A DNA stretch of 45,128 bases from Lachnospiraceae bacterium. GTDB taxonomy: Bacteria > Bacillota > Clostridia > Lachnospirales > Lachnospiraceae. The notes under the pieces are model-generated. The model had not been told where the DNA came from and searched no databases. It saw only the letters and a list, made by a program, of their open reading frames with translations. Both the position numbers and the translations under genes were made by a program. Shown here piece after piece: positions 12-45,118 of this stretch (position 1 is its first letter; each line of letters opens with the position of its first letter). The DNA lies in NCBI GenBank assembly GCA_024698885.1, contig JAILQQ010000087.1:1-45128 (forward strand). Direction: 5' to 3'.

Positions 12-189
12 CCTGCGCCGATTCGCTTTGCGAATCGTGCGCTTAGGCACGAACCTGTTCGTGCCGATCCGGTCGGCTTGCTGACCGGATCATTTCCTAT
101 CCTGCGCCGATTCGCTTTGCGAATCGTGCGCTTAGGCACGAACCTGTTCGTGCCGATCCGGTCAGCAGGCTGACCGGATCATTTCCTTA
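12..189. repeat. Two tandem 89-bp units, each with three hairpins
   Basis: Copy 1 (12-100) and copy 2 (101-189) are nearly identical. Each holds three perfect hairpins in the same order: GATTCGC-TTT-GCGAATC (20-36; 109-125), GGCACGAAC-CT-GTTCGTGCC (46-65; 135-154), and a GATCCGGTC/GACCGGATC stem (66-91; 155-180). The only differences I see are three bases at the tip of the third hairpin, where G75-T82 in copy 1 becomes A-T in copy 2 so pairing is kept. Copy 2 runs into the stop codon of the CDF gene. No T-run follows on either strand, so these are not classical terminators. Confidence 0.9.
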
Positions 190-1359
190 TTCCCTGACGA
201 AAGGTTTGTCAATATTGACAACGGCATAATAATTGCCCGGCAGCTCCTGTACCCGTTTCTCGATCTCCCGTTTCAGCTCGTCATCACTATACTGGAAACG
301 GTAAGGGGCGATGACATCAAAGATCAGCTTGGTATGCGTCGGGCCGACCACCATCCTGAAATCGTGTATCGAAAGCTCCTCGGAAATGCCGTGCACCAGA
401 AGTTCCGCCACTTTCTCCATGCTCTCCCTGGTATCGTCCTTTATCGCTACCGGATCCATATGGATCACCGCCTCGCATCCGAGCACCTCCTTGAGTTTCC
501 GCTCAATATTATCAATCGTATCATGAAGCTTTACCATGTCTCCGTCAGCGGGAACCTCCGCGTGAAGCGTGATCATCATCCTTCCGGGGCCGTAATCGTG
601 TACGACCAGATCGTGCATGCCGAGGATCCCGTCATAGCTCTCGACAAAGAGCTCGATCCGCTCGGCAAACTCCCGGTCGATCGAAGTACCGAGCAGCGGA
701 TCGATCGTATCCTTGGCGGAAGTAAAGCCCGTGATCAGAATAAAAACAGCCACCAGAAGTCCGCACCATCCGTCGGCATTTACGCCAAGGAATTCATTGA
801 CCACGAGAGTCAAAAGGACAATGGAGGTGGCGACGGAGTCGACAAAGCTGTCCGCGGATACGCCTCGCAGAGCCGCGCTTTTCAGTTTGTCCGCGGCGCT
901 TTTGTTGTAAGCGTACATAAACAGCTTCACAAGAACGGAGGAGATCAGGATCAGAACCGTCGTGGCGCTCATATCCACATCCGTAGGAGAAATGATCTTT
1001 CCCACGGAGGTTTTAACAAGCTCAACACCCATAAGGATAATGATGATGGAAACGATCAGGCCCGTAACGTATTCCAGCCTCCCGTGTCCGAAAGGATGCT
1101 CGAGATCCGGTTTCTCGGCCGACATTTTAAAGCCCACCAGCAACACCACCGAGGAACCGATATCCGAAAGATTGTTGAAAGCGTCGGTTACGACCGCGAT
1201 AGAGCCGCTGAGAAAACCGGCCAGAAATTTGACCACAAAAAGAAGCAGATTGAAGAAGATCCCCAGCCTGCCGCAGAGAAGCCCGTACTGAGCCCTGACA
1301 TTGATATCATGAACCTGTTCGTAATCTTTTATGAAAATTCTCGCAAAAAAATCGATCAT
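187..1359 (-). CDS. Cation diffusion facilitator (CDF) family metal exporter
   Basis: CDF transporters exchange divalent metals such as Zn2+, Mn2+ or Fe2+ for protons across the cytoplasmic membrane. The 390-residue protein has a six-helix transmembrane domain (about 30-215) and a cytoplasmic metal-binding-like domain (about 215-390) of the CDF C-terminal type. Metal-site residues are visible as TDAFNNLSD in helix 2 (D59, N63, D66) and ADSFVD in helix 5 (D170, D174), with the loop motif HPFGHGR between helices 2 and 3. I chose the start at 1359 because an AAGAAGG-like ribosome site lies just upstream; the frame stays open further upstream inside the neighbouring gene. It begins 4 bp after the AI-2E-family gene stops, so both are probably co-transcribed. 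The substrate metal cannot be read from sequence. Confidence 0.9.
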   Translation of the reverse strand: MIDFFARIFIKDYEQVHDINVRAQYGLLCGRLGIFFNLLLFVVKFLAGFLSGSIAVVTDAFNNLSDIGSSVVLLVGFKMSAEKPDLEHPFGHGRLEYVTGLIVSIIIILMGVELVKTSVGKIISPTDVDMSATTVLILISSVLVKLFMYAYNKSAADKLKSAALRGVSADSFVDSVATSIVLLTLVVNEFLGVNADGWCGLLVAVFILITGFTSAKDTIDPLLGTSIDREFAERIELFVESYDGILGMHDLVVHDYGPGRMMITLHAEVPADGDMVKLHDTIDNIERKLKEVLGCEAVIHMDPVAIKDDTRESMEKVAELLVHGISEELSIHDFRMVVGPTHTKLIFDVIAPYRFQYSDDELKREIEKRVQELPGNYYAVVNIDKPFVRE

Positions 1360-1363
1360 ATTG

Positions 1364-2572
1364 CTATGCCTTCTTCTCAGACTCTTCCTGCCGTTTATCA
1401 GAAACAGGCTCGGTCTGTACGCCTTCCGCGGCAAGCTCCTCCGGGGTAAAACGCCTTACCTTTTCAATCCCCTGCAGCAGCATCATGCAGCTGTACTTAA
1501 AATTACTGAATACACCGGCCCTGTAAAGATTTATGATCACCATCCCGATGGGGATCGCTAAGATCAGCCCGAAAGGGCCGCCAAGCCGAAATCCGATATA
1601 AAGCAGAAAAAGTGTCGGGATCGGGTCAAGTCCGATAGAATCTCCCACAAGCTTCGGCTGGATCATCTGCCGGATCGCCTGCCCGATGATCCATATGATG
1701 AACAAACCTGCCGCCATTTTATAGTCCTGCTGCAAAAGCTTTACGATAGCCCAGGGCCACATGACGGCTCCTGTTCCGAAAAAGGGCAGAAAATCAAGCA
1801 GCGCGATCAGAAATGCGATCAAAAACGAAAACTTCACACCGAGGATCAGTAAGCCGATAAACAGCTCAATGTAGATGACTCCCATGATCTTAAACTGGGC
1901 GATAAAGTATCCTCCCACCGCGTATTTGACCGTACTGTATACAAGCTCCCAGCGTTTAACCAGGCTTTCCGGGATATACTTATCGGCAAAGCCCACAAGA
2001 TAATCCTTATCCGCGAGGAAAAAGTAGGAGGCAATAATGCCCATGATAATACTGACAAGGGTCAGGCCCACATTACTGCCGGTTTCTTCCGTAAAACCTC
2101 CCTGGGCGATCGATGATCCGATACCGCTGATCCAATCCGTCATATTATTGGAAAAGCTGTCTAAGACGGTATCTGACCACTCCCGCACAGGGATCGGAAA
2201 ACGGCTCATGTAACCCCGCAGCATCACAAGAAAATCACGGATCGTATCGTTCGTTGATTCCCAGATCTCGGGAGCGAGGCGAAGGAACCCGATAAACTGA
2301 ACGACCAGATTCCATATCACAAAATAAAGCACCGTCACGACCAGAGCGATAACGATGATGATCACCATCGCCGTTCCGGCTTTTCGCGTGATCTTTACCT
2401 TTTTTTCCATAAACCGGACCAGAGGATTCGCGATCAGGGCGATCAGGCCGGCAACGACAAAGGGCATAAAATAGATCAGGATACGCGGCAGCAGAACAAA
2501 GAAAAACACCGCCAGTGCCGCCATGCCGATAATATTAACGGCTATTTTCAAGTATTTTGTCGATTTCTTCAT
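1364..2572 (-). CDS. AI-2E family (UPF0118) membrane permease
   Basis: A 402-residue polytopic membrane protein of the AI-2E/TqsA/YdiK family. Members have been linked to signal export, Na+/H+ antiport or general efflux, so the substrate is unknown here. The N-terminus has two close hydrophobic helices (about 10-50), a third at about 65-95, and a C-terminal set of long hydrophobic segments (about 160-360). The family pattern is visible in FLIALLDFLPFFGTGAVMWP and in PKLVGDSIGLDP with its following glycine-rich helix. The tail is charged. The start at 2572 is supported by a GAGGT ribosome site and lies 38 bp inside the end of engB, which indicates translational coupling in the same operon. Confidence 0.88.
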   Translation of the reverse strand: MKKSTKYLKIAVNIIGMAALAVFFFVLLPRILIYFMPFVVAGLIALIANPLVRFMEKKVKITRKAGTAMVIIIVIALVVTVLYFVIWNLVVQFIGFLRLAPEIWESTNDTIRDFLVMLRGYMSRFPIPVREWSDTVLDSFSNNMTDWISGIGSSIAQGGFTEETGSNVGLTLVSIIMGIIASYFFLADKDYLVGFADKYIPESLVKRWELVYSTVKYAVGGYFIAQFKIMGVIYIELFIGLLILGVKFSFLIAFLIALLDFLPFFGTGAVMWPWAIVKLLQQDYKMAAGLFIIWIIGQAIRQMIQPKLVGDSIGLDPIPTLFLLYIGFRLGGPFGLILAIPIGMVIINLYRAGVFSNFKYSCMMLLQGIEKVRRFTPEELAAEGVQTEPVSDKRQEESEKKA

Positions 2573-3128
2573 ATACCTCGTCTCTGCCGCTTTTCGTAAT
2601 ACTTGAGAAAGGAATGATCCGGACCTCTGCCGGAAGCTTCAGGGTTTCCCTGATCAGCTGTAACTGCCTGTCCTTCTGGCTTCTCTTGATCTTATCGAGC
2701 TTTGTGGCAATAATGACAGGCGTATACCCGCAGGATGTTATCCATTCTGCCATTTCCCGGTCATGCTCCCCGGGGGCATGCCGAATATCAAGGAGAAGAA
2801 ATACCGCCTTCAGCTGGCGCGACGTACGCAGATAGCGGTCTACCATCCGTCCCCAGCTTTCCTTTGCGGTTTTGCTGACCTTTGCGTAGCCGTAACCCGG
2901 CAGGTCCACAAAATAAAAAGCGCGGTTGATATTATAATAATTGAGCGTCTGCGTTTTTCCCGGCTGCGCGGAGGTTCTCGCCAGGGACTTCCGGTTCATC
3001 AGCGCATTGATCAGGGAAGATTTCCCTACATTGCTCCGGCCGGCAAAAGCAAATTCCGGCAGTGTATTTTCCGGCAGTCTGCTGGTAGGGCCGCAGACTG
3101 TTTCCAGACCGACTTCCTTGATTTTCAT
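2535..3128 (-). CDS. engB: Ribosome biogenesis GTP-binding protein EngB/YsxC (YihA)
   Basis: Small cytoplasmic GTPase (197 residues) required in many bacteria for late 50S ribosomal subunit assembly. All G motifs are present: G1 GRSNVGKSS, G2-region threonine in SAQPGKTQT, G3 DLPGYG, G4 TKLDK and G5 SSITKSG. Length and motif spacing match the family. The start at 3128 (MKIKEVGLET) is preceded by GGAAGGA at a good distance; an upstream in-frame Met lacks a ribosome site. It lies downstream of clpX, separated by a hairpin that may partly terminate the tig-clp transcript, and it overlaps the AI-2E gene. The clpX-engB order is typical for Clostridia, but lon, commonly found between them, is missing. 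Confidence 0.96.
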   Translation of the reverse strand: MKIKEVGLETVCGPTSRLPENTLPEFAFAGRSNVGKSSLINALMNRKSLARTSAQPGKTQTLNYYNINRAFYFVDLPGYGYAKVSKTAKESWGRMVDRYLRTSRQLKAVFLLLDIRHAPGEHDREMAEWITSCGYTPVIIATKLDKIKRSQKDRQLQLIRETLKLPAEVRIIPFSSITKSGRDEVYEEIDKILENSR

Positions 3129-3165
3129 TATACATCCTTCCGTGATAAAAGTCACCCGATATCCA

Positions 3166-3192
3166 AAACGCCGCCCAAAATATTCGGCGGCG
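3166..3192 (-). terminator. Hairpin terminator downstream of clpX
   Basis: CGCCGCC (3169-3175) pairs with GGCGGCG (3186-3192) around a 10-nt AT-rich loop. On the minus strand it is followed by a short TTTT. It sits between the stop of clpX and the start of engB. The T-run is short, so it may be an attenuator that allows read-through. Confidence 0.6.
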
Positions 3193-3232
3193 TCAGGCGG
3201 TCATTCTTAAATAACTATTGGCATCTTATTGG

Positions 3233-4507
3233 TTATTCAGCCTTCTTCAAATCATTTGACCTCGTTATTAATGGCGAAGAATTGCCGTCTACGGCGGCTT
3301 TTGTTATTGTTACGGATGTTATTGTTTCGTCAGAAGGGATCTCAAACATCACATCCATCATCACGCCTTCCAGGATAGAGCGGAGTCCTCTGGCTCCCGT
3401 CTTTCTCTTGTAGGCAAGTCTGGCGATCTCCCGGATCGCTTCTTCCTCAAAGCTTAACCGGACACCGTCAATCTCAAACAGAAGCTTATACTGTTTGACG
3501 ATCGCATTCCTCGGCTCCGTCAGGATCCGCACCAGCGCATCCTCATCAAGACCCTCCAGTGAAACGCAGATCGGTACACGGCCGACAAACTCGGGGATCA
3601 GCCCGAACTTCACCAGATCCTCCGGCTGTACCTTCGCCAAGAGTTCGCTGAGCTCCTGCTCCTTTTTCACCTTGATCTCCGCGTTAAAGCCGATAGACTT
3701 CCTGTCCAGACGGTTTTCCACGATCTTTTCAAGTCCGTCAAAGGCGCCGCCGCAGATAAACAGAATATTGGTCGTATCGATCTGGATCAGCGACTGCTGG
3801 GGGTGCTTACGTCCGCCCTGGGGCGGCACTGACGCTAACGTCCCTTCTATAATCTTTAACAGTGCCTGCTGAACACCTTCCCCGGACACGTCACGGGTGA
3901 TGGAAACATTTTCGGATTTCTTCGTGATCTTGTCGATCTCATCGATATAGATGATCCCGAGCTGTGCCCGCTCCACGTTATATTCGGCGGCCTGTATCAG
4001 CTTTAAGAGGATATTTTCCACGTCTTCCCCGACGTAGCCTGCCTCGGTCAGCGTCGTTGCGTCCGCGATCGCAAAGGGAACATTCAGAAGCTTTGCTAAC
4101 GTCTGGGCCAAAAGCGTTTTTCCGGAGCCGGTAGGCCCCAGCATGATAATATTGCTCTTCTGCAACTCGACATCACTCTTTACCTTTGTCTGCATGACTC
4201 TCTTGTAATGATTGTATACCGCCACAGAAAGGACCTTTTTTGCTTCCTCCTGGCCGATCACGTTTTCATCCAGAATAGCTTTGATATCCATGGGCTTAAG
4301 CAGGTTGATGTCCAGATCATCCGAACCATCGCTTCCCTGCTCTTCGGCATACATCTCGTCCTCCAGAATGTCCGCGCAGATCTCAATGCATTCATCGCAG
4401 ATATATACGCCATTCGGGCCCGATATCAGCTTTTTCGCGTATTCCTGAGACTTTCCGCAGAATGAGCAGCAGATATCATCATTATTTCCGTCTTTTTTTC
4501 CAGCCAT
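3233..4507 (-). CDS. clpX: ATP-dependent Clp protease ATP-binding subunit ClpX
   Basis: AAA+ unfoldase (424 residues) that recognises, unfolds and threads substrates into ClpP. The N-terminal zinc-binding domain has C14-x2-C17 and C37-x2-C40. The AAA+ module shows Walker A GPTGSGKT, the pore loop GYVGEDVEN, Walker [11 protein letters not shown] and the [10 protein letters not shown] segment. The ClpP-docking IGF loop is intact within RKSIGFNAE, so it should pair with the ClpP encoded next door. The start at 4507 follows an AAGGAAA ribosome site, 12 bp after the clpP stop. It is third in the tig-clpP-clpX operon. Nothing is truncated. Confidence 0.98.
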
Positions 4508-4519
4508 GTTGATTTCCTT

Positions 4520-5104
4520 TTATTCTCTGTTCTCTATGATCCTGTCGATCAGACCGTACTCTAACGCCTCTGCCGCAGTCATCCAGTTATCACGCTCGGT
4601 ATCTCTTGCGATCTCTTCGATCGGCCGGCCCGTATTTTCCGATAAGATCCTGTTCAGGTTTGCCTTCGTGCGAAGGATCTGCTTCGCGGCGATCTCGATC
4701 TCCGTTGCCTGCCCCTTGGCGCCGCCTAACGGCTGATGGATCATTACCTCAGCATTTGGCAGGGCAAAGCGCTTGCCCTTGGTCCCTCCGGCAAGCAGAA
4801 ACGCGCCCATGCTGGCCGCCATCCCCATACAATATGTCGCAACGTCACATTTCACATAGTGCATCGTATCATAGATCGCGTACCCGTCGGTTACGGATCC
4901 CCCCGGGGAATTAATGTAAAAATGAATATCCTTTTCGGGATCCTCGGCCTCAAGGAACATCATCTGCGCGACCACCAGGCTGGAGGTCACCGGATTAACC
5001 TCCTCGCTTAAGAAAACGATCCTCTCCTTTAAGAGTCTCGAGTAAATATCATAAGAGCGCTCGCCGCGGCTTGTCTGTTCTACAACAACCGGTACTAAAC
5101 TCAT
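4520..5104 (-). CDS. clpP: ATP-dependent Clp protease proteolytic subunit ClpP
   Basis: Serine peptidase (194 residues) that forms the tetradecameric chamber working with ClpX. The catalytic triad falls at canonical positions: Ser98 in GMAASMGA, His123 in MIHQP and Asp172 in RDTERDNWM. The glycine-rich [10 protein letters not shown] loop lines the substrate channel. I chose the start at 5104 ([10 protein letters not shown]) because a perfect GAGGAGGT ribosome site precedes it; a longer reading would overlap the end of tig. The gap to tig is 25 bp and to clpX 12 bp, so the three genes form one operon. Confidence 0.98.
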
Positions 5105-5129
5105 CTTAACCTCCTCATCCCACATTGCC

Positions 5130-6419
5130 TTATTTTTCAACAGCGGAATCGATGATCAGATCGATCGCCTTCTGCAGCTTGATATCCTCTTCGATCGGAG
5201 CCCTGCTGTTTTCGTCAAGCATCTCCTTGAACCGGTCAAGCTCCATATCGTATTCCGTGGCCATCCGCTTCAGCTCGTTCTCGTAATCCTCATCCGATAC
5301 GGTAAAGCCTTCCTGTTTGATCACCTCTTCCAAAACTAACGAGGTTTCGATCCGCCGGCGCGCGCTTGGCCTTGTCTGCTCGATAAATTTCTCCTTGTTT
5401 AAGCCGGTAAACATGAAGTACTGGTCAAGCGTCAGTCCCTGCCCGGAAAGCCGGCCGGCATACTCCTCCATCATACGGTTTGCCTGCTCATCCACCATGG
5501 CATCCGGAATATCCATTTTGGAATCCTTTACAATCGCCTCGAGCAGCCTGTTTTCCTTCTCCGCTCTGGCTTCCTTTTCCTTTCTCTCTTTCAGCGATTC
5601 CCTGAGGGAGGCTATGTACTCCTCCATGGTATCAAATTCGGAAACCTCGCTGGCAAACTCATCATCAAGCTCAGGCAGCTCTTTTTCCTTGATCTCCCGC
5701 ACCGTTACCCGGAACATGGCATCCTTGCCCGCCAGATGTTCCGCGCTGTAATCCTCCGGGAAGGTCACATTGATCTCCTTTTCCTCATTCAGCGCTGCCC
5801 CGATCAGCTGATCCTCAAAACCGGGAATAAAAGAGCCGGAACCGATCGTCAGCGAATAGTTTTCGGCTGACCCGCCTTCAAACGGCTCTCCGTCTACAAA
5901 ACCTTCAAAATCGATCACCGTGATGTCGCCATCCTTAACCGGTCTGTCCTCTACCGAAATACTGCGGGCGTTTCTCTCGCGTTCCTTCTCTATCTCACTG
6001 TCGATATCCTCGTCCTTTACTTCGGCGTCCACCTTTTCGATCTTTACGCCCTTATACTTGCCGAGCTCGATTTCCGGTTTCAGTGCCACGACAGCCGTAA
6101 AGATGAACGGCTTGCCTTTTTCGATCTGCACTACCTCGACCTCCGGACGGGATACTACCTTAAGCTCCTCATTGCCGTACATCTCCGTCATCAGTCCGTT
6201 GTTGATCAGCTCATCGGCCGCGTCATTGTAAAAAATCTCGGGACCGTACATTCTCTCGATCATGACCCGGGGTGCCTTCCCCTTCCGAAAGCCTGGGATA
6301 TTAATATGCTTCCGGTTTTTATGATACGAGGTGTCCAGAGCCTTTTCGAGCTCCTCCGCGGACATTTCTATCGTCAGCTTAGCCATATTATGCTCTAAAT
6401 TTTCGACTTTTAAACTCAT
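5130..6419 (-). CDS. tig: Trigger factor (ribosome-associated chaperone, PPIase)
   Basis: Trigger factor binds the ribosome at the nascent-chain exit and shields emerging proteins. The 429-residue protein has the N-terminal ribosome-binding domain with signature GFRKGKAPR, an FKBP-type PPIase domain in the middle (segment [19 protein letters not shown] then [13 protein letters not shown]), and a charged helical C-terminal chaperone domain. The start at 6419 is supported by GGAGG about 12 nt upstream. It is first in the tig-clpP-clpX operon, and a roughly 345-bp divergent gap separates it from the DJ-1 gene, so its promoter should be there. Confidence 0.97.
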
Positions 6420-7459: not shown

Positions 7460-7467
7460 ATATATGA

Positions 7468-8765: not shown

Positions 8766-8774
8766 AGACTTATC

Positions 8775-8810
8775 GCGGTCGGATAGGGGAAAACACCCCT
8801 ATCCGATCGT
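8775..8810. repeat. Perfect 10-bp hairpin extended by wobble pairs
   Basis: CGGATAGGGG (8780-8789) pairs with CCCCTATCCG (8796-8805) around loop AAAACA. The stem extends outward to about 15 bp if G-U pairs are allowed. No T-run follows, so it is not an ordinary terminator. It lies immediately after the CYTH stop and 7 bp before the larger inverted repeat at 8817. Confidence 0.85.
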
Positions 8811-8816
8811 CGCGTT

Positions 8817-8911
8817 GGCCGTCAAATGGACGCTCGTGCCTGCCGTCAAACGAGCGCTCGTGCAAGCACGGCGCTCGCTTGACGGCAGGCACGAGCGTCC
8901 GCTTGACAGCC
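8817..8911. repeat. 42-bp arm inverted repeat closing on a short hairpin
   Basis: Left arm 8817-8858 and right arm 8870-8911 are complementary at 37 of 42 positions; all five differences are transitions. The tip closes as CGTGC-AA-GCACG. The left arm is itself a near direct repeat: GCCGTCAAATGGACGCTCGT is followed 24 bp on by GCCGTCAAACGAGCGCTCGT. It lies between the convergent CYTH and phosphofructokinase genes and lacks a T-run. Confidence 0.88.
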
Positions 8912-18588: not shown

Positions 18589-18696
18589 GGGGGCAAAAGG
18601 TGCTTTAGCACCTTTCTAGATACATGATATAGTGCTTGAGCTTGCTCAGGAGCACTATATCATGTATCCGGAAATGGCACGAAGTGCTTTTGCCCC
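18589..18696. repeat. Nested multi-arm inverted repeat in a divergent gap
   Basis: Outer stem GGGGCAAAAG (18590-18599) pairs with CTTTTGCCCC (18687-18696). Inside lie AAAGGTGC-TTTA-GCACCTTT (18596-18615), a perfect 18-bp stem 18619-18636 with 18651-18668 capped by TGAGC-TT-GCTCA, and GCAC-GAA-GTGC (18677-18687). Some outer and inner pairs are alternatives. It lies between the divergent zinc-ribbon and mtnA genes, so it is not a shared 3' terminator. Confidence 0.9.
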
Positions 18697-22775: not shown

Positions 22776-22855
22776 GGTACCCTCAATCAACTGCGCCGAT
22801 CTGTTCACAGGTCGTGCGCCCGGGAATGGGCTTTTGCTCATTTCCGAAATAAAGC

Positions 22856-27296: not shown

Positions 27297-28709
27297 ATGG
27301 AAAGAGAAAAATATGAATCCTTAAGTCTGACTGCGCTCAGAGATATAGCGAAAGCCAGAGGCATCAAAAATGTGACCACGATCAAAAAAAGCGATCTCAT
27401 TGACAGGATGATGGCCTTGGACGCGGAATCCCAAAACAGCTCTGCCGTTGCTAAGCAGCCCGCTTCCGAGCAGGCGGGCAGAGAGGCGGCAAAGAAGTCC
27501 GAAGCTTCCGCATCCGGGACGGAGGAGAGCGGCAAGGAAAGCTCCGCCGGAAGCGACCTCTCCGAAGAAAAGAAGATTCTTGACAGCGGCATCGAGGTCA
27601 GGGGGATCCTGGAGGTCCTGGCGGACGGCTACGGTTTTATCCGCAGCGACAATTATATGCCCGGCGAGGATGATGTCTATGTGGCACCGAGCCAGATCAG
27701 GCGCTTCTCCCTGAAAACCGGGGATATCGTATCTGGCAATATGCGCATCCGCTCAACAAACGATAAATTCGGCGCATTGTTATTCGTTAAATCCATTAAC
27801 GGCATCAAACCGGAAAGCATGCAGAAGCGGGTGAATTTTGAAGATCTTACGCCGATTTTTCCGGACGAGCGGCTGAAGCTTGAAACCATGCGTGGACCCG
27901 TATCGATGCGGATCATGGATCTGATGTGCCCGGTGGGAAAGGGGCAGCGCGGCATGATCGTATCTCCGCCGAAAGCCGGAAAAACGACCCTCTTAAAGGA
28001 TGTGGCGCGCTCCATTACCCGGAACAATCCCGAAATGCATCTGATCATTCTGCTGATCGACGAACGTCCCGAGGAAGTAACGGATATCAAGGAAGCCATA
28101 GAGGGCGAGCATGTGGAGGTCATTTATTCCACCTTTGACGAGCTGCCCGAGCATCATAAGCGCGTATCGGAAATGGTCATCGAGCGTGCCAAAAGACTCG
28201 TGGAATACGGCAAAGACGTGACGATCCTGCTTGACAGCATCACGCGTCTGACCAGGGCCTACAACCTGACAGTTCCGCCCAGCGGCCGTACGCTCTCCGG
28301 CGGACTTGACCCTGCCGCGCTGCATATGCCGAAGCGTTTCTTCGGCGCCGCCCGGAATATGCGCGAAGGCGGAAGTCTGACGATTCTGGCGACAGCGCTC
28401 ATTGACACGGGCAGTAAGATGGATGATGTCGTTTACGAAGAATTCAAGGGAACCGGCAATATGGAAATGGTCCTGGACAGAAAACTGTCCGAGCGCCGGG
28501 TATTCCCGGCCATCGATATCCTGAAATCCGGTACAAGACGCGAAGACCTGCTGCTTGAACCCGGAGAGCTGGAAGCCACCAATATCATCCGGAAAGCCTT
28601 AAACGGTATCAAAGCCGACGAAGTCGTCGAAAGGATCCTCGATATCTTCGCGCATACCAAGAACAACCGGGAATTTGTTGAAATCATTAAGAAGCGGTTC
28701 ATTGCCTGA
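27297..28709 (+). CDS. rho: Transcription termination factor Rho
   Basis: Hexameric RNA-dependent ATPase/helicase (470 residues). The N-terminal Rho_N SAP-like domain (about 1-42, [13 protein letters not shown]) is followed by a disordered Ala/Ser/Glu/Lys insertion (about 45-95), then the cold-shock-like RNA-binding domain ([20 protein letters not shown]) and the RecA-type motor: Walker [10 protein letters not shown], Walker [15 protein letters not shown]-loop and R-loop region [20 protein letters not shown]. The ribosome site is GTGAGG. The 3' gap to DUF4364 carries very large inverted repeats that end in a T-run. Confidence 0.97.
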
Positions 28710-28780
28710 GACGGTAATGTCAGGGTCGGCGTGCTGACCGGATCGGCGTAACCGAAGTTCATGCCACAACGCACGATTTA

Positions 28781-28813
28781 CAGCGCACGATTTGCTACGC
28801 AAATCGTGCGCTG
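28781..28813. repeat. Perfect 15-bp hairpin downstream of rho
   Basis: CAGCGCACGATTTGC (28781-28795) pairs with GCAAATCGTGCGCTG (28799-28813) around TAC. The module CGATT-GC...GC-AATCGTGCGC recalls the first hairpin of the repeat at 12-189. Just upstream, GTCGGCGTGCTGACCGGATC (28726-28745) also resembles the third hairpin of that repeat. Confidence 0.9.
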
Positions 28814-28823
28814 TGGAGGGGGC

Positions 28824-29133
28824 GGAGAGGCCGGGAGAGCCGCAGGGCAGAGCCACCCAGACGAGCAGGCGGAAATAGTTCATGTTGTCGAAAGGGGCGG
28901 CGCGATGACGTCTGGGTCAAAAGTGGCATGTGGCGAAGCCACATGCACACTTTGCACAAAAAACCGTCTCTGCAAGCTAGCTTGCGAGAGCGGTTTCTTG
29001 TGCAAAGTGACATGGCACTTGGTGCCATGTCACTTTTGACCCAGACGTCATCGCGCCGTCCCGGCTGCATCTGTATTTCCGCCTGTCCGCCCGGGCGGCT
29101 CCGTCCTGCGGCTCTCCCGGCCTCTCCTTTTTT
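28824..29133. repeat. Very large nested inverted repeat (five-arm structure) between rho and DUF4364
   Basis: Outer arms 28824-28877 and 29074-29127 are complementary at 47 of 54 positions; all seven differences are transitions. Inner arms 28899-28925 and 29031-29057 are perfect over 27 bp. The inner arms enclose three hairpins: GCATGTGGC-GAA-GCCACATGC (28926-28946), a 19-bp stem with one mismatch (28948-29009, capped by GCAAGC-TA-GCTTGC), and ACATGGCAC-TTG-GTGCCATGT (29010-29030). Six T (29128-29133) follow the outer arm on the plus strand, so the whole could act as a rho-gene terminator. Confidence 0.93.
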
Positions 29134-29205
29134 AGATCAAATTACTTCACCTTTGCTTGCCTGCTTCTTCGATAGCTGCGTCAGAAAGCCTCGGCGATGC
29201 CCGCG

Positions 29206-29733
29206 TTATTCCTCTAGCAGCTTCTGCATGAGCCATTTATAAATATCCTGACAGTTTTTGTCCCAGTTGTCGCAGACTGTCTTGGCCGGCCCTTCCGCCG
29301 GCAGCGAGATCCTGACTGTAAGCAGCTCACTGTTATTCTCCCGGATCGTCATCTCTGCCAGGTAATCGCCTGCCGTCGTCCGGTCATAACCTGACCGTAT
29401 CGACATCTCATTTTTTATCTCATATTCCTTCTCTATGAGAAAATCCGTTATTTCCTTTTTAATGCCCGAAGACAGCCGCTCCGGAAACATGTTCAGGATT
29501 TCCCGGCCATCGTCCGTGATCTCGATATTTGACTTGTTCCGTTTTGTCTCCGAGCGGATAAAGCCGTTTTCGATCAGCTCATTGAGGATCACGTTTACAT
29601 GCAGATAGTCGGTATACCTTCCGAGCATGAATTCATAGATCTTAGCCCTTGTCACAGACTGTCCCGCCCTGTTCAGCATGAACAGGATCATGAGCTTATA
29701 CAGCGTATCCAGTTCCTGAATTGATTCTTCCAT
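29206..29733 (-). CDS. DUF4364 family protein (winged-helix-like)
   Basis: A 176-residue cytoplasmic protein of a family common in Clostridia with unknown role. The N-terminal half looks like a winged helix (TLYKLMILFMLNRAGQSV, then AKIYEFMLGRYTDYLHVNVILNELIENGFI and a strand pair SNIEITDDG), suggesting DNA binding. The C-terminal half resembles a small beta domain (LAEMTIRENNSELLTVRISLP). Start is uncertain: ATG at 29733 or GTG at 29739, neither with a ribosome site, while TATACT lies immediately upstream. It begins 39 bp after the P-type ATPase stops. Confidence 0.85.
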   Translation of the reverse strand: MEESIQELDTLYKLMILFMLNRAGQSVTRAKIYEFMLGRYTDYLHVNVILNELIENGFIRSETKRNKSNIEITDDGREILNMFPERLSSGIKKEITDFLIEKEYEIKNEMSIRSGYDRTTAGDYLAEMTIRENNSELLTVRISLPAEGPAKTVCDNWDKNCQDIYKWLMQKLLEE

Positions 29734-37176: not shown

Positions 37177-38781
37177 TTAATGTCGAAAATGCCGCATTCC
37201 GGTAAACACCATGGTCATACCGTAAGCGTCCGCTTTATCGATCGACTCCTGATCCCGGATCGAACCGCCCGGCTGAATGATCGCTGTAATCCCCGCTTCG
37301 TGGGCTGCTTCCACGGTATCCGCAAACGGGAAGAACGCATCGGAAGCCAGGACCGCCCCGGTCAGCGCTTCCTTTCCAATCAGCTCCCGCGCATGGTCAA
37401 AGCACTGCTTCGCTGCCCAGATTCGGTTGACCTGCCCGGGTCCGATGCCCACAGACTGCGTATTTTTAACGACTACGATCCCGTTGCTCTTCGTATATTT
37501 GACGATCCGCATGCCAAACTGCATGTCCGCAAGCTGTTCTTTCGTGGGCTGCGCCTTTGTCACCACCTTCAGATCTTCCTCATGATAAAGCTCCGCGTCT
37601 ATCGTCTGCACGATCAGGCCGCCGTTCACCTTCTTCATATCAAAGGCCTTTTTATCCTGCGCCGTACTGATGTCGGGAAGCCGCAAAACCCGGAGGTTTT
37701 TCTTCTCCCGCAAAAGCGCCAGCGCTTCCTCCGTATAAGCCGGTGCCACGATCACCTCCAGGAAAACAGGCTTCATCGCTTCCGCAAGTGCCAGGGAAAC
37801 AGTCCTGTTTACCACTAATATACCGCCGTAGATCGATACCTTGTCCGCCGAAAAAGCCTTCTCCCAGGCTTTTAAGACCGCGGTTTCCTCATCCGGCGCG
37901 TGATCAACGGGGCAGTCCGCTTCGGTACTGACCCTGACCGAGCCGACACCACAGGGATTTCCATGCTTACAGGCCACCACCGTCGGATCCGTAAACTCCT
38001 TGAGCAGTTCCAGCGCGCCGTTGGTATCATTAATATTATTAAAGGAAAGCTCCTTCCCGTTTAGCTGTTCCGCGTCAGTTAAGGATCCCTTCCGATGGCC
38101 GATCTCGCGGTAAAAGGCCGCCTTCTGGTGAGGGTTCTCGCCATAGCGCATATCCTGAAGCTTTTCAAAGGTCATCGTCAGTGTATCCGGAAGCGTTTCG
38201 TCCTCCCGCTGTCTGCGGATATAATCGGCGATCATGGTATCGTAATGCGCCGTGTGGGAAAAGACCTTCTGCATCAGATAGAATTTCGTATCAATATCTA
38301 CGCTGCCGTTTTCCTTTAACTGCTCCATTACCGTTTCATAATCGGCCGGATCCGTTACCACCGTCACATCCTGATAGTTCTTCGCCGCCGCCCGCAGCAT
38401 GGAAGGTCCGCCGATATCTATATTTTCCACGGCTTCCTCTCTTGTCACACCTTCCTTCAGGATCGTTTCCCGAAAAGGATATAAATTGACGATCACCAGA
38501 TCGATCGGCTCGATCCCAAGCTCCGAAAGCTGTTTCATATGCTCGGGGTTACCACGCATAGCCAGAATACCGGCATGGACTCTTGGATGCAGCGTCTTTA
38601 CCCTGCCGTCCAGGCATTCCGGAAAGCCGGTCAGCTCTGAGATCTCCGTAACCTTAATGCCTGCTTCCGTAAGCGTTTTCGCGGTCCCGCCGGTGGAAAT
38701 GATCTCCGTTCCCATCTCTCTCAGCTCTTTCGCCAGTTTAATGATCCCGCTCTTATCCGACACACTGATCAGTGCTCTCAT
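37177..38781 (-). CDS. purH: Bifunctional AICAR transformylase/IMP cyclohydrolase PurH
   Basis: Catalyses the last two steps of IMP synthesis. The N-terminal IMP cyclohydrolase domain begins ALISVSDKSGI and holds STGGT and NIDIGGPSMLRAAAKN. The C-terminal transformylase domain has the catalytic Lys-His in ACKHGNPCG and ends with the QPGGSIRDQE loop. It is 534 residues, normal for the family. The start at 38781 follows a strong CAGGAGGAA site. It lies 21 bp after the EAL-domain gene and in the same strand block as guaB, tying IMP synthesis and its conversion to XMP together. Confidence 0.96.
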   Translation of the reverse strand: MRALISVSDKSGIIKLAKELREMGTEIISTGGTAKTLTEAGIKVTEISELTGFPECLDGRVKTLHPRVHAGILAMRGNPEHMKQLSELGIEPIDLVIVNLYPFRETILKEGVTREEAVENIDIGGPSMLRAAAKNYQDVTVVTDPADYETVMEQLKENGSVDIDTKFYLMQKVFSHTAHYDTMIADYIRRQREDETLPDTLTMTFEKLQDMRYGENPHQKAAFYREIGHRKGSLTDAEQLNGKELSFNNINDTNGALELLKEFTDPTVVACKHGNPCGVGSVRVSTEADCPVDHAPDEETAVLKAWEKAFSADKVSIYGGILVVNRTVSLALAEAMKPVFLEVIVAPAYTEEALALLREKKNLRVLRLPDISTAQDKKAFDMKKVNGGLIVQTIDAELYHEEDLKVVTKAQPTKEQLADMQFGMRIVKYTKSNGIVVVKNTQSVGIGPGQVNRIWAAKQCFDHARELIGKEALTGAVLASDAFFPFADTVEAAHEAGITAIIQPGGSIRDQESIDKADAYGMTMVFTGMRHFRH

Positions 38782-38802
38782 CCTGTTTCCTCCTGCCGCA
38801 TT

Positions 38803-40986
38803 CTATGCGTATTTTTGCTCAAAGTCTTCCTTTTTCATCGGTTCATCGATGCAAAAGCCCTGAATGTAACGAATCTGCAGGCTCTCAAGCCTATGCAGCA
38901 TTTCTTCTGTTTCCACGCCTTTGGCGCACACCTTGACACGCCTCTGCCTGAGCGGTTCCAGTATTCCCCTTACAAAAGCTTCCGGATCATCCGTTTCCGC
39001 TATTCTTTTCACCGTTTCCTGTGACAGCTTCACTGCGTTTACCGGCAGGGCGGAAACAAGTGCCATGGATTCCTTCTCCGCGAGAAAATCATCTATTGCG
39101 ATCCGGCACCCAAAGCCTTTCAGGGATGTCAAAAGCTCCTGCAGTTCGGGATTCTTTTCCCGCAGCGCTTCCTCCGGGATCTCCAGGGTCAGATTTTTCG
39201 GATTGATCCCCGTTTCCTGCAATACCGTGCGGATGTCCTCCTCCAGATGTCCGGAAAGAAGCTCCTCGGCAGAAAGATTGACGTCCGCCTTACAGTAGGG
39301 ATGTCCGGATTCATTCCATTTTCTCACTGAGAGGCAGGCTTCTTTAAGCACATGGCGGCCGATGGGAATGATCAGACCGGTCTGCTTCGCATTCGGCAGG
39401 AAGGAATCCGGCAGCATAAAGCCAAGCGAGCGGGAATTCCATCTGACAAGGGCTTCCGCCGCCACGCATTTTCTGTTCTTTAAAAGATCGATCACGGGCT
39501 GGTAATATACCTCAAATTCCGCCATTACCTTCGGATCGATCGTCTTATCGCTGAAGTTCTGCGTAATTGCCGCTGTCTGATCTTCCGTCTCTGCCGAAGG
39601 ATTCTCCGTAACCGGCGCTGCTTCCGCCGCCTCAAACAGCGAATAAAGCACTGCGTAGCGCCCGTCCACCCATTTAATGACCGTGCGGTTCATATAATAC
39701 CGCCTGCCGCTCTTTTCATCGCAGATTTCCGTGCGCAGATCGTTGCCGTCCGTTTCCGCCCGCAGCAGGTCATGGATTGACCCGTCCTTCAGCGCATCGG
39801 AAAATTCCTCCTCCAGTTTCTTATTGACAAACAGGATCTCATTGCTCTGCTTGTCCTTCACCAGGATATAACTCCCGACATTGTTTAGGATGACCTTCAG
39901 AGAAATGTAGGAGGAGGTCAGCGATTCCTTGTTTAAGCGCTTGTCATAAATGCTCTGTAAGATCCTTGCCGTATCGCCGAAAAACTTGATATCCTCTCTG
40001 CTCCAGAGTCTTGTCGGGTCATTGTCGGCAAAGATCAGGTACATGCTGACCCGGCGCGGCTGCCGTCCCGAAAAGACAGGAAGTGCCACAAAGCTGATGA
40101 TCCCGATGGATCCCAGCCAAAGCCTGAAATCATATTCTATATCCGTCCGTGAGGAGACCACCATGGGTTTGTCCCCTATGGCGGCCATGTATTTCACCAC
40201 ATCCGCCATATCGACCCGCTCGATCACCGGATCGGTATTTTCGCTCCGATATCTGCCCTTCACCTCTATGGTATTCTGCTCCCTGTCAGGCGCGATCACA
40301 TAGGCATGGGAAATATCCACGCTCTTTCCGGCTGTAGTGACCAGTTCATGACAGATATCCTCAAATCTTTCATTGGAATCAAGCAGCTCAACGATATGCG
40401 TTGTCGCCTCGGATCTGTGCAGCGCCCGGGATAACGCCATCTCGCTCTGTCTGCTTTTTTCCTCCTCCTTGCGGGAGTATTCAAGCAGCGCGGCGTTGCT
40501 GTAGATGCGGTTATATATTTCCCGGAGATAGTCAAGACCGCCGAAAAAGATATTCTCATCCACGACAGACCGGATGTTAAAGATCGCATCCTTTCCGTCA
40601 GGATCATAATATACCGCGCAGACGATAAAGCAGAACAGGGGGACATGGTTTGATTTGATGGCTACGGCGGCCAGCTTCATATTCGAGAACTCCGTATTCT
40701 CGACGATCTGCTCCTCGAGCCTTGTTTTCATTACCCTTCTGTAAAGATCCTCGACCTGCCGCTTGCTTAACAGATCCGCGATCCGGTTGGTGTCCCGCAT
40801 ATCGCGCCCGGAAATATCGGTAAGCTGTTTTCCTTCTTCATCCAGCGCAAACAAAAACAGACCGGAAATGTCCGCAAAATAATCCTGGTCCTTTTGCAGA
40901 ACAGTCCGATCTATCGGGGGCTTCCCGCCGCCCCTACGTTCTTCATTCCCTGCTGGGTCTGTATTTTCTACCTTAAATTCCATCAT
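38803..40986 (-). CDS. GAF/PAS-EAL domain protein, probably degenerate c-di-GMP phosphodiesterase
   Basis: A 727-residue soluble protein. After a variable N-terminus (1-160) and a coiled-coil linker, a GAF-like domain (about 205-345), a PAS-like domain (about 365-455) and a C-terminal EAL domain (about 485-725) are seen. Intact EAL residues are E511-A-L, N570, E602, D632-D633, K653 and Q709. However loop 6, normally DDFGTGYSS, reads DDFLAEKES, and the AEGVE glutamate proposed as catalytic base is K689 (AKGVE). It may therefore bind c-di-GMP as a receptor with little or no activity. It overlaps the ABC-2 permease stop by 4 bp. Confidence 0.88.
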   Translation of the reverse strand: MMEFKVENTDPAGNEERRGGGKPPIDRTVLQKDQDYFADISGLFLFALDEEGKQLTDISGRDMRDTNRIADLLSKRQVEDLYRRVMKTRLEEQIVENTEFSNMKLAAVAIKSNHVPLFCFIVCAVYYDPDGKDAIFNIRSVVDENIFFGGLDYLREIYNRIYSNAALLEYSRKEEEKSRQSEMALSRALHRSEATTHIVELLDSNERFEDICHELVTTAGKSVDISHAYVIAPDREQNTIEVKGRYRSENTDPVIERVDMADVVKYMAAIGDKPMVVSSRTDIEYDFRLWLGSIGIISFVALPVFSGRQPRRVSMYLIFADNDPTRLWSREDIKFFGDTARILQSIYDKRLNKESLTSSYISLKVILNNVGSYILVKDKQSNEILFVNKKLEEEFSDALKDGSIHDLLRAETDGNDLRTEICDEKSGRRYYMNRTVIKWVDGRYAVLYSLFEAAEAAPVTENPSAETEDQTAAITQNFSDKTIDPKVMAEFEVYYQPVIDLLKNRKCVAAEALVRWNSRSLGFMLPDSFLPNAKQTGLIIPIGRHVLKEACLSVRKWNESGHPYCKADVNLSAEELLSGHLEEDIRTVLQETGINPKNLTLEIPEEALREKNPELQELLTSLKGFGCRIAIDDFLAEKESMALVSALPVNAVKLSQETVKRIAETDDPEAFVRGILEPLRQRRVKVCAKGVETEEMLHRLESLQIRYIQGFCIDEPMKKEDFEQKYA

Positions 40987-41723
40987 TTCCTTCGATTATA
41001 CCTGTATATACCGATTCCGCTGGAAACAATCAGATAAAAGAATCCCATGGAAACCGTTAACGGAATGTTCCGCGCCGGATCAGCCGGATACGGTATCAGT
41101 GAAAAAAGCTGAGTGACTGTGACTGTCCTGATCAGGCGGAACGGCTCCAGACGGAACGGCTCTGCCGCAAGCAGCATGATCCCTCTTTCCAAAACAACCG
41201 TCAGCAGAAAGTAGAAAAGGTATGCCTTCTTCCTGTCTGAAAAGCCAAACAAAAACATATTCGCAAAGCCGATGCCCGCAAGCCACAGCGGGATCGCGTA
41301 AACCATTTTCTCCAGAAAATCAAAAATATCCGTATGGCCGATCGTGCCATCGCTCAAATGGAAAAGCAGAGTGACTATGAACAGCGTCACCACGGTGATC
41401 AGCAGAAAGGCCATGGCAAGAAGAACAGAAGCCGAAAGCTTCGAGAGATAAAACTGCGTCCGGCTGAGTCCCGGCTGAATCCTGCCTTCTCCGTAAACAA
41501 TGTCGGCAATGAATATGCAGCTGTAATACGGAATCACAAAACACCAGGTCGCATATACCAGAATATTATATGCGAAGGTTCCTTCATTCGAACCGTAGAT
41601 CGCGCGGAAAGCCAGAACTGCCACATTGGCAAGCAGACAGGCCCCTGCGATCGCGATGATATATATCTTGGAAGGCCTGCTTTTCAGAGCCTTCCGGAAT
41701 TCATTGATAATATACTGTCCCAT
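40983..41723 (-). CDS. ABC-2-type membrane permease-like protein (no ATPase partner)
   Basis: A 246-residue integral membrane protein with six hydrophobic helices in the ABC-2 permease pattern. The N-terminal amphipathic segment INEFRKALKSRPSKIYIIAI and a central loop SDIVYGEGRIQPG-like region (IADIVYGEGRIQPGLSR) are typical. An ATP-binding subunit is not encoded nearby, so either it works with a remote ATPase or it has another role. It lies between guaB (24 bp upstream) and the EAL gene, which it overlaps by 4 bp, suggesting coupled synthesis. No good ribosome site precedes its start at 41723. Confidence 0.8.
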   Translation of the reverse strand: MGQYIINEFRKALKSRPSKIYIIAIAGACLLANVAVLAFRAIYGSNEGTFAYNILVYATWCFVIPYYSCIFIADIVYGEGRIQPGLSRTQFYLSKLSASVLLAMAFLLITVVTLFIVTLLFHLSDGTIGHTDIFDFLEKMVYAIPLWLAGIGFANMFLFGFSDRKKAYLFYFLLTVVLERGIMLLAAEPFRLEPFRLIRTVTVTQLFSLIPYPADPARNIPLTVSMGFFYLIVSSGIGIYRYNRRK

Positions 41724-41747
41724 GTCATCTGTTACCGGACATATCCG

Positions 41748-43247
<1,500 letters not shown>

Positions 43248-43751
43248 CTACATCCTGACTTTTCTAGGTGCCATATTTCTCATCACGTTTAACAGGGCTT
43301 CATCCGGCTCAAGCTTATATAAAGCCTCTCCCTTTTCATCATGATATGCCAGATAATATACTCTGTGGTCCGGAAATCCCGAGCTGTAATCCTTGACAGT
43401 TACCTTCCGGCTCAGATAGGAATCAAAATCATGACCATCCGCAGGCGCAAACAGCTCCATCTTCAGAAGATCCAGCGTTTCCATCTTTTTGCGCTTCTGC
43501 TTTGACATGATTTTATCAATCGTAAGTTCTTTGTCAAGATAAAGATATTCATATTCAATATCCAGCATCGGAAAAACCAGATATGCCGACGCAAAGCCGG
43601 CAATGATTGCGCCAAAGATCAGAACAGATATGCCAAACATCAACGAGGCCAGCACAAAGATCGCACAGACCGCGATGCACCCCGCCTTGATCAGGATATT
43701 CAAAGGATTCGGTTTTCTTGCCACCAGGCATTCCACATAAGTATCGTTCAT
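43248..43751 (-). CDS. Small membrane protein of unknown function (DUF6106-like)
   Basis: A 167-residue protein beginning MNDTYVECLVARK. Two adjacent hydrophobic helices (about 20-62: LIKAGCIAVCAIFVLASLMF and VLIFGAIIAGFASAYLVFP) are followed by a cytoplasmic beta-rich domain (YEYLYLDKELTIDKIMSKQKR and later strands) that resembles a pleckstrin-like fold. I recall a Lachnospiraceae family (DUF6106) of this type, but am not certain. The start at 43751 follows CGAGGT. It is 4 bp after the DegT-type gene and 36 bp before guaB. Confidence 0.75.
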   Translation of the reverse strand: MNDTYVECLVARKPNPLNILIKAGCIAVCAIFVLASLMFGISVLIFGAIIAGFASAYLVFPMLDIEYEYLYLDKELTIDKIMSKQKRKKMETLDLLKMELFAPADGHDFDSYLSRKVTVKDYSSGFPDHRVYYLAYHDEKGEALYKLEPDEALLNVMRNMAPRKVRM

Positions 43752-43755
43752 ATGA

Positions 43756-44892
43756 TTAACCTCGGTTGATAATAATGCTGCAGATCCTGTCCACTTCCTC
43801 GAGAGGCAGATCCGCAAAAAGCGGAAGCGTCAGAACCTGCTCACTGATCTGTTTCGCAACCGGCGTTTCCGCGGGATCGAAAATGCCCCTGTAGCAATCA
43901 AAGGCATTTGTGGTTGGGTAAAAATATTTTCTCGCAAATATTCCGTTTGCGGAGAGTATTTCCGCTGCCTCGTCCCGGGACAGCCCAAAAATTTCCTTAT
44001 TAAATAATATAGGGTAGTAGCCGTAATTCATGGTAAGTCCCGGTTGGGCTTTTCGAAGCGTAAGGCCCGGGATACCCTGCAGATTCCGGTCGTAGCGTTC
44101 CGAAACCTTTTTTCGCCTCGCGATTTCCTCTGCGATATGGCGAAGATTGCATAAACCCATGACGGCACAGAATTCGTTCAGCTTCGCGTTGGTGCCGACC
44201 GCCTCGACATTGTTTTCCCGGCTGATCCCGAAATCCTTCAGCAGATAAAGCATCTCCCCGAAGGCCTTTTCCCTGTTCCCGAAGCAAACCGCTCCGCCCT
44301 CGATCGTATGAAAAACCTTGGTCGCGTGAAAGCTGTAGCAGGAAGCGTCTCCGAAGGTGCCGATCCCCCGGCCGTCAAGACTCTCGCCAAAGGCATGCGC
44401 GGCATCATAGATCACTTTCAGTCCGTACTCCTTCGCGATCCTGTCAATTTCATCCACCCGGCAGATATTTCCGTAAACATGCACCGGAAGGATCGCGCAG
44501 GTCCGATCGGTGATCAGCTCTCTGATCCGCCCGGGATCCATCGTATAATCCTTGGGATTTATATCACAGAATACCGGTTTTAAGCCGCATCTTACGATAG
44601 CATGCGTTGTTGATGCGAAGGTAAAGGGCGTCGTGATCACCTCTCCCTTCAGAGCAAAGGCCTGAAGGCTCAGTTCGATGGCATTATGGCCGTTTGTGAA
44701 CAATTCGATATTGTCGACCTTAAGATATGCCTTGAGCGCTTCCTTCAGCTCCTCATGCTTTACCCCCATATTAGTCAGATAGCGGCTGTCCCATACGGAG
44801 CGCAGCTCCTCCATGTATTCCTCTATGGAAGGCATGGAAGAACGCGTAACCAGTATTTTCTCTTCTTTGTTTTTCTTCTTATTATTATTCAT
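43756..44892 (-). CDS. DegT/DnrJ/EryC1/StrS family aminotransferase
   Basis: PLP-dependent sugar aminotransferase-like protein of 378 residues. The PLP lysine is in SFHATKVFHTIEGG, the ring-binding Asp in VIYDAAHAFG, and FTNGHNAIELSLQA matches the phosphate-binding start. The family typically makes amino sugars on nucleotide carriers (cell-surface glycans or secondary metabolites), but no glycan genes are adjacent here, which is unusual. Start uncertain: ATG at 44892 has no ribosome site and follows a promoter by a few bases. The ATG opens an Asn/Lys-rich leader (MNNNKKKNKEEK) before the normal family start ILVTRSSMPS. Confidence 0.9.
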   Translation of the reverse strand: MNNNKKKNKEEKILVTRSSMPSIEEYMEELRSVWDSRYLTNMGVKHEELKEALKAYLKVDNIELFTNGHNAIELSLQAFALKGEVITTPFTFASTTHAIVRCGLKPVFCDINPKDYTMDPGRIRELITDRTCAILPVHVYGNICRVDEIDRIAKEYGLKVIYDAAHAFGESLDGRGIGTFGDASCYSFHATKVFHTIEGGAVCFGNREKAFGEMLYLLKDFGISRENNVEAVGTNAKLNEFCAVMGLCNLRHIAEEIARRKKVSERYDRNLQGIPGLTLRKAQPGLTMNYGYYPILFNKEIFGLSRDEAAEILSANGIFARKYFYPTTNAFDCYRGIFDPAETPVAKQISEQVLTLPLFADLPLEEVDRICSIIINRG

Positions 44893-44902
44893 AATTTCGT
44901 AA

Positions 44903-44931
44903 AGTATAACAAAAAAAACCGGTATAGGCAA
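44903..44931 (-). promoter_or_regulatory. Sigma-A promoter of the DegT-type gene
   Basis: Minus strand: TTGCCT (44926-44931), 17 bp, TATACT (44903-44908). Transcription should begin at about 44896, only a few bases before the ATG at 44892, giving an almost leaderless mRNA. Confidence 0.7.
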
Positions 44932-45037
44932 GGTAAAGCGGGAGAGAGATCAGCCGGAGGTAAAATCCGTTGTTTCGGCATGGAATTTCCGAAGCAATTG
45001 TACTATAATAGGCTGATAAAGCATTGGAAGACGCGGT

Positions 45038-45118
45038 GCTCCCGCGGCGCAGCGCTTTGATAAAGAGCAAAAGCACCATGCAGCTTTGCTCCTTATCAAA
45101 GCGCTGCGCCGCGGGAGC
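45038..45118. repeat. Long hairpin with perfect 26-bp arms at right edge
   Basis: Arms 45038-45063 and 45093-45118 are perfectly complementary over 26 bp (outer end GCTCCCGCGGCGC). The stem continues as GAGCAAAAGC/GCTTTGCTC with one bulged base, closing on ACCATGCA. It lies upstream of the DegT-type promoter, and may be longer outside the window. Confidence 0.93.

Follow-up and report, generated by a model that had tools for sequence, protein, structure and literature searches.

Different families of folding, apparently mobile intergenic repeats in a Lachnospiraceae genome, one of them lying mostly sense beside ribosome-binding sites

The window, the whole stretch of 45,128 nucleotides that was analysed, carries palindromic elements that are best read as mutually unrelated non-autonomous mobile repeats, F1, F2 and F3/F4, whose mobility we infer. 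It appears somewhat probable that the window holds several such families, that their common style reflects the need of each to fold, and that F1 has multiplied in this lineage. The inverted repeats noticed from the letters in five intergenic gaps are present at all five places, and the six segments of the window folded as RNA gave z-scores from -8.5 to -15.7, with 0 of 200 shuffles folding equally well for each. The features are the following.

1–12, minus strand: SD-like GAAAGGAAGACA directly 3' of the F1 end, at the contig end (sequence, flank listing).
13–98, minus strand (runs 98 to 13): F1 unit with three hairpins (nhmmer 81.2 bits, R1 102.6 bits, fold z -8.5).
102–187, minus strand: F1 unit, tandem copy (nhmmer 82.0 bits, R1 104.2 bits, fold z -9.6).
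8775–8911: F2, a hairpin (8776–8809) and a long palindrome (8817–8911) in a convergent gap (palindrome scan, copy search, fold).
18589–18696: F3, an outer stem, two short side hairpins and a central palindrome (18613–18674) in a divergent gap (palindrome scan, copies, fold).
22791–22842, minus strand: F1 remnant, 5'-truncated, ending 15 nt ahead of a called start codon (nhmmer, gene context).
28713–28806, plus strand: decayed F1 copy just after rho (nhmmer 46.8 bits).
28824–29127: larger single-copy palindrome around F4, arms 28824–28877 and 29074–29127 (palindrome scan, copy search).
28906–29050: F4, terminal repeats (28906–28925, 29031–29050), hairpin A (28926–28946), central hairpin (28948–29009) and hairpin B (29010–29030) (copies, TIR search, fold, alignment).
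45038–45118: single-copy palindrome at the end of the contig, its arms 34 bp long (palindrome scan, copy search).

The sequence-only reading had taken these elements for one family, which was rejected because the F1, F2 and F3/F4 searches return different sets of places; the F4-region query also contained an F1 remnant and therefore returned F1 places too, and 45038–45118 has no second full copy. The modules it saw recurring in 12–189 and near 28726–28813 are indeed common to both, each being F1, the second as the decayed copy of 46.8 bits, and the gene-context listing bears out the mixed settings of the elements, convergent, divergent and gene-end. Since the elements at 12–189 and 45038–45118 lie at contig ends, one flank of each is invisible. 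Long palindromes (≥60 bits) numbered eight in an unbiased sample of 390,271 bases of this genome and none in the control, one dinucleotide shuffle of that sample. Of three same-genus genomes, two yielded none (in 217 kb and in 200 kb) and the third a single one in 200 kb. At a looser cut (≥35 bits) this genome, with 113 per Mb against 115, 65 and 65 in the relatives, is no richer than one of them. Arm differences, described earlier as transition-only, are not so in general: with loop positions included, the halves of 29 palindromes show 133 transitions and 110 transversions, besides 199 gap positions. Of the palindromes in the window, only 18613–18674 fits that description (2 transitions, 0 transversions); the respective counts are 14 and 9 for 28824–29127, 4 and 1 for 8817–8911, and 1 and 2 for 45038–45118. 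No sign of RNA selection acting on one strand was seen in the big palindromes, whose transition mismatches split 93 to 40, within chance (P 0.19).

F1 is a unit of about 86 nt with three hairpins, and the genome contains 157 or more matches to the structure model R1; shorter partial copies were detected by nhmmer. According to the alignment its ends are AGGAAATGA and GGCGCAG, which are not inverse complements, so that terminal inverted repeats are lacking. Rfam returned no F1 match at E≤1. At gathering score it recognised only a tRNA in the window, and elsewhere only sub-threshold miRNA/snoRNA matches appeared, two of them on other palindromes at E about 1e-5.

The position of F1 relative to genes is far from even. 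It is sense to the called downstream gene in 96 of 110 arrays and, among tandem gene contexts, in a sense to antisense ratio of 66:7; held-out arrays were sense to the next gene in 35/41 cases and antisense in 6/41, and antisense copies made up 8/69 of the sampled arrays. Of the 117 arrays with a 3' end, 72 are sense and no more than 45 nt from a start codon. An SD-like AGG or GGAG begins 0–4 nt past the F1 3' end in 52 of these 72, as against 658 of 8685 random intergenic positions. An SD is expected ahead of any gene, and the adjacency is therefore partly a consequence of start-codon closeness. Only 4 of 14 antisense copies have an AGG adjoining the 3' end; this makes strict targeting of SDs less likely and would allow the position itself to be under selection. 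Flanks compared by eye revealed no clear target duplication at F1. That these palindromes are simply long transcription terminators is very improbable. A T-run does follow the right arm of 28824–29127, and convergent gaps hold 12 of the 49 palindromes that reach ≥45 bits; however, F1 lies mostly upstream of start codons, a position that largely refutes the reading for this family, F3/F4 occupy divergent gaps too, and a pattern scan of 28600–29300, restricted in stem and loop size, finds no terminator.

The distribution of F1 points to multiplication within the lineage. The structure model found it in 0 of 20 relatives (at most 150 candidates scored per genome) and a DNA search in 0 of 30. Among 391 genomes of the class it was found only here, a weak result because at most two candidates per genome were scored in the results listed. 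Plasmids and phages gave no match; in viral contigs 61 stretches carry the one exact F1 14-mer variant scanned, none matching R1 at E≤0.1. The relatives are distant (39–85% identity at the compared loci), and therefore only 11 of 132 arrays were comparable; the site was empty in relatives at 9 of 9 comparable loci. Thus the suggestion of a mobile, self-folding repeat, untenable for a single family, is well supported for F1, with its many copies, restricted lineage and empty sites, and for F3/F4, multi-copy with common terminal repeats. The alternative suggestion, a dedicated processing factor, found no counterpart, with neither a Y1/RAYT transposase match nor a gene-sized element with matching ends. 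The enzyme search, which covered Y1/RAYT transposases and reverse transcriptases, identified no mobilising enzyme for F1, F2 or F3/F4. Being short, extragenic, hairpin-forming and present in many copies, F1 might be taken for a REP moved by a RAYT, a Y1 transposase. This is rejected for the present assembly and can be given hardly any credence: Y1_Tnp (PF01797) has 0 matches in this genome (97.7% complete) against its presence in 12 of 21 genomes searched, and the F1 alignment lacks the GTAG or CGTC end tag of the definition in the accessible text of PMC3733652. Four reverse-transcriptase matches do occur in this genome. A link to F1 was discarded, the F1 profile finding no full unit near them; the best nearby match, of hairpin-I size, scores 18.3 bits (E 2.1e-5) and lies at L351:1088–1122 on the strand opposite the RT gene, others being weaker.

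Covariation is strong in all three stems of F1, with 174 both-sides-changed cells against a shuffled mean of 50.8, and the bulged A of stem III is nearly invariant. Together with the mostly sense orientation and the spacing just ahead of the SD, these features would suit an RNA that serves the host, distributed over 5' leaders or the gaps between cistrons, where it would insulate or tune translation and be retained for working at that position. Such a role is nevertheless unlikely. RNA-level selection should favour G.U, but among one-sided mispairs G.T is no commoner than A.C (33 and 41, P 0.42); these mispairs build up with copy divergence as measured in the linker (Spearman 0.21, P 0.02), a trend that two-sided changes do not share; F1 is absent from the relatives searched; and the downstream genes look functionally unrelated, by eye and from protein sequences only, with likenesses to ribosomal protein S12, RuvB, RlmN, MnmG and TruA among them.

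F2 has few copies. F3 and F4 have common terminal repeats and a common four-way-junction layout, and are intergenic in any orientation; F4 is also present in one relative. The search with their terminal inverted repeats gave 46 matches against 1 in the control, and alignment A2 covers seven copies. In this fragmented assembly no facing pair at gene-sized spacing, as a full-length partner would have, was seen among the 46. Their flanks show no constant target duplication, the ends being blurred by the palindromic flanks. By eye, one F4 copy (L055) bears an F2-type hairpin, and F4 cores cap long stems, the outer arms of these stems showing no apparent relationship between copies. This arrangement would be expected if replication template switching, or quasi-palindrome correction, made and perfected the palindromes, the arms growing outward by inverted copying of flanks, a mechanism described in PMC8794818. 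The similar style would then be the mark of a mutational process, which could operate in addition to mobility rather than instead of it. The excess of two-sided over one-sided changes fits too, as does a tRNA-Pro whose 3' part is repeated inverted past a terminator-like hairpin (45 nt at 76%), although the case is clear in only 1 of 14 tRNAs. Since template switching leaves the dispersed homologous multi-copy families, the F1 placement and the common ends of F3/F4 unexplained, it is regarded as a doubtful explanation.

If F1 is a mobile repeat, new copies would enter mRNA leaders and intercistronic gaps beside the SD (AGGAG), carried by some enzyme or by recombination through short AGGA homology. 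The latter is proposed because AGGA stands at the F1 5' end and again in many SDs past the 3' end. Spreading copies would require the hairpins, which might decay afterwards. As a side effect, about 90 nt of strong hairpins would separate the ribosome-binding site of a gene from the stop codon preceding it, and insertion could uncouple cistrons or alter mRNA stability. Only tentatively may F1 be seen as a mobile repeat adapted to ribosome-binding sites, entering specifically at SDs in sense orientation by short AGGA homology or a nucleic-acid-guided route. About 100 genes would thereby have acquired the same hairpin leader, and the element would sometimes provide the gene upstream with its stop codon (AGG AAA TGA). 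F3/F4 would be MITE/ERIC-like elements that have ends in common, fold into a four-way junction and depend on an unseen transposase for their movement.

Known repeats offer partial parallels. F1 differs from MITEs in having no terminal inverted repeats; F3/F4 differ from ERIC and MITEs in that no partner transposon was found and in their interior four-way junction with an exchangeable central tip. The size of ERIC falls within the 100–150-bp range of F3/F4, which resemble ERIC and the other bacterial MITEs of PMC10969869 as multi-copy intergenic near-palindromes with terminal repeats. BOX of Streptococcus pneumoniae is composed of boxA, boxB and boxC sequences. Proposed with RUP and SPRITE to be parasitic and non-autonomous, it is modular with a variable number of units (PMC3049150); F1, likened to it by description alone, is also short, modular, strongly folding, interspersed and variable in unit number, but is mostly sense, upstream and beside the SD, whereas those repeats are reported to be over-represented between convergent genes. 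REPs, 20–40 bp long, GTAG/CGTC-tagged and predominantly downstream of coding regions, sometimes form several families per genome, some without a dedicated transposase (accessible text of PMC3733652). F1 shares with REP/BIME the extragenic hairpin and the coexistence of several families in one genome, yet it is about 86 nt long with three hairpins, untagged and mostly upstream of genes, in a genome without a Y1 match.

Short repeats have been reported mainly downstream of genes or between convergent ones, as far as the accessible parts of PMC3733652 and PMC3049150 go, and the placement of F1, sense beside ribosome-binding sites, is unusual for such repeats. Open-access searches, a scope outside which most subscription papers lie, found no description of a repeat placed in this way. 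Comparing G.T and A.C mispairs, which are equally common, with concerted two-sided stem changes provides an easy way to ask whether hairpins of this kind are retained because they benefit the host or because they help the repeat itself to spread. If F1 does settle mostly sense beside SDs, it would point the way to an insertion mechanism not yet described, and its presence there ahead of apparently unrelated genes would amount to a natural experiment in altered translation across many operons.

The genome that holds the window, as contig C25, comprises 3.71 Mb in 266 contigs (completeness 97.7%), and the window's own gene content is ordinary for a bacterium (clpX, tig, rho, guaB, purH and a YtvI-type sporulation protein). 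All five intergenic gaps singled out in the sequence-only reading do contain inverted repeats, and six segments of the window fold with z values from -8.5 to -15.7, none of 200 shuffles being equally good. A sample of 39 contigs (390,271 bases), drawn without bias, likewise showed an excess over shuffled sequence: it contained 44 palindromes of at least 35 bits and 8 of at least 60 bits, against 3 and 0, respectively, in the single dinucleotide shuffle used as control. Three same-genus genomes yielded 0, 0 and 1 palindromes of at least 60 bits (in 217, 200 and 200 kb), and those of at least 35 bits are not peculiar to the host genome (113 per Mb versus 65, 65 and 115). Throughout the sampled stretches, about 0.9 of whose bases were called coding, 3 of 49 palindromes of at least 45 bits overlapped a called gene beyond its edge.

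The proposal that the five gaps hold one family was not borne out. The palindromes are real and the guess of mobility is plausible, but several unrelated families had been joined:

13-98 and 102-187, minus strand: F1, a tandem of a unit of about 86 nt
8775-8911: F2
18589-18696: F3
28906-29050: F4
45038-45118: a separate palindrome

With at most 150 first-look candidates scored per genome, a structure model of F1, built on 64 of the 67 listed full-length units, gave at least 157 matches in the host genome; in 20 relatives, of which 12 belong to the same genus, it gave no match. The unbiased 390-kb sample held 17 full and 19 partial F1 units; by extrapolation, the whole genome would have some 160 full ones. 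F2 has four full copies, with nine shorter matches on other contigs; F3 matches over at least 70 nt at 16 places; and F4 occurs on at least 17 contigs, 40 of 153 candidates having been scored. The palindrome at 45038-45118 has no second copy, its matches being itself and one chance-level place of 18 nt. Positions 1-103 of the window match 1295-1397 of contig C166 of the same genome at 96%, and GAAAGGAAGACA follows F1 in the window and likewise on C166 (stretch L280), so the window contig may break inside this common repeat.

F1 starts with AGGAAATGAT..., continues with three hairpins, the third with a nearly invariant bulged A in its stem, and ends with GGCGCAG. Over 64 units 96.7% of the cells are paired, and changes on both sides occur at 16 of 33 pairs (174 cells against a shuffled mean of 50.8), a signal that is lost when the structure is slid by 1 to 3 columns. 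One-sided mismatches show no preference for G.T, with 25 G.T versus 33 A.C in the 64 units, and 33 versus 41 (P 0.42) in 112 distinct units with the two apical pairs excluded. The more the linker has diverged, the more mispairs a unit has (Spearman 0.21, P 0.02), a correlation carried by 17 units since the linker is unchanged in the other 95 of 112; two-sided changes show no such rise. The simplest reading is that spreading lineages would retain pairing and that resident copies would lose it by neutral decay. Stem variants are weakly linked (P 0.001, 0.001 and 0.10 for the three stem pairs), and tandem neighbours have them in common more than random copies do (14 tandem pairs).

Placement relative to genes was counted by array, using a simple purpose-written gene caller. 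Three hits that crossed or opposed others (on stretches L113, L132 and L077) were excluded beforehand; the L077 hit is possibly a genuine inverted unit. In a first set of 90 arrays, from stretches partly chosen for holding repeats, the 3' end was kept in 75; a downstream gene was called for 69 of these, and 61 lie in sense to it. The same orientation was found in 35 of 41 cases in a held-out set (42 arrays from 40 loci, the best-scoring structure-model matches outside the earlier stretches, fetched after the rule had been seen). The pooled 132 arrays comprise 15 without the 3' end and 117 with it: 72 in sense within 45 nt of a start codon, 24 in sense but farther away, 14 antisense and 7 without a called gene. 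The Shine-Dalgarno-like AGG/GGAG begins 0-4 nt past the unit in 52, 12, 4 and 4 of these, respectively, several of the 12 marking where a further F1 unit starts, and at 658 of 8685 random intergenic points. Between co-directional genes, 66 arrays are sense versus 7 antisense. At 10 of the 132 arrays (7 in the first set, 3 held-out) the upstream reading frame stops 9 nt inside F1, at the TGA of AGGAAATGA. By eye, the downstream proteins resemble unrelated household genes.

Eleven of the 132 arrays had both neighbour genes adjacent in stretches from the relatives G002, G004 or G010; two represent one locus and one has a different gene order, leaving nine loci, and F1 is absent from the relative at all nine. 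The G004 counterpart of L129:16095-16183 reads stop-ACAGGAGG-start; in the host genome F1 sits between the stop and the Shine-Dalgarno-like motif. At L128:3292-3376 and on L292 the C-terminal residues of the upstream protein differ from the relative's and terminate in F1. Because the relatives are diverged (39-85% at the compared genes), what the empty sites show is lineage-specific gain of F1 (or its loss in other lineages), not that it has moved recently.

As for mobilising enzymes, the Y1 (REP-type) transposase has no match in the host genome and is matched in 12 of 21 genomes searched. G004, where such matches are present, carries a different hairpin repeat (GTCAAAAGGGACGGTTC...), with three copies on stretch L172 (99-165, 8822-8887 and 15899-15967). 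There are four reverse-transcriptase matches in the host genome; no full F1 unit lies near any of them, and one has nearby an F1 fragment of the size of hairpin I (L351:1088-1122, 18.3 bits). The reverse transcriptase at L351:1231-2433 matches the PADLOC model RT_UG26 (E 3.6e-148) and is a candidate defence enzyme.

F3 and F4 both fold with an outer stem that encloses three hairpins, a long one in the centre flanked by two short ones. Their ends fit TGATGTCAGGGTCAAAAG; when up to 3 mismatches are allowed, this sequence occurs at 46 places and the reversed control at 1, no two of the 46 facing each other at a gene-sized distance. Among 30 relatives, F4-like DNA occurs in G002 only, at two places, with the frame kept and the central tips different. 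In 6 of 11 printed F4-type copies the outer arms, judged by eye, run on past the F4 ends still paired, their sequence seemingly unrelated from copy to copy; either the element entered the tip of an existing hairpin, or template switching made the arms grow outward. At L117:9941-10242 an F4 copy lies inside three nested, tandemly repeated stems resembling terminal repeats, as though by insertion of one element into another. Two more palindromic elements (L066:16943-17099 and L072:8897-9053), starting with AGGAACTGT and ending with ACAGTTCCT, look MITE-like by eye and unlike F1-F4. One of 14 tRNAs scanned gave a strong inverted-copy case: at L119:113-266 a tRNA-Pro gene and a terminator-like hairpin are followed by 45 nt that repeat the 3' part of the tRNA in inverted, degenerate form (76%). 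A weaker example was seen after tRNA-Gly (L099:729-868).

In behaviour, the closest known kin of F1 are the BOX, REP and MITE repeats. It is not placed within them, because it lacks the REP features tested and, unlike MITEs, has no terminal inverted repeats. What is noteworthy is that F1 is a lineage-specific, strongly folded repeat that lies, mostly in sense orientation, beside ribosome-binding sites.
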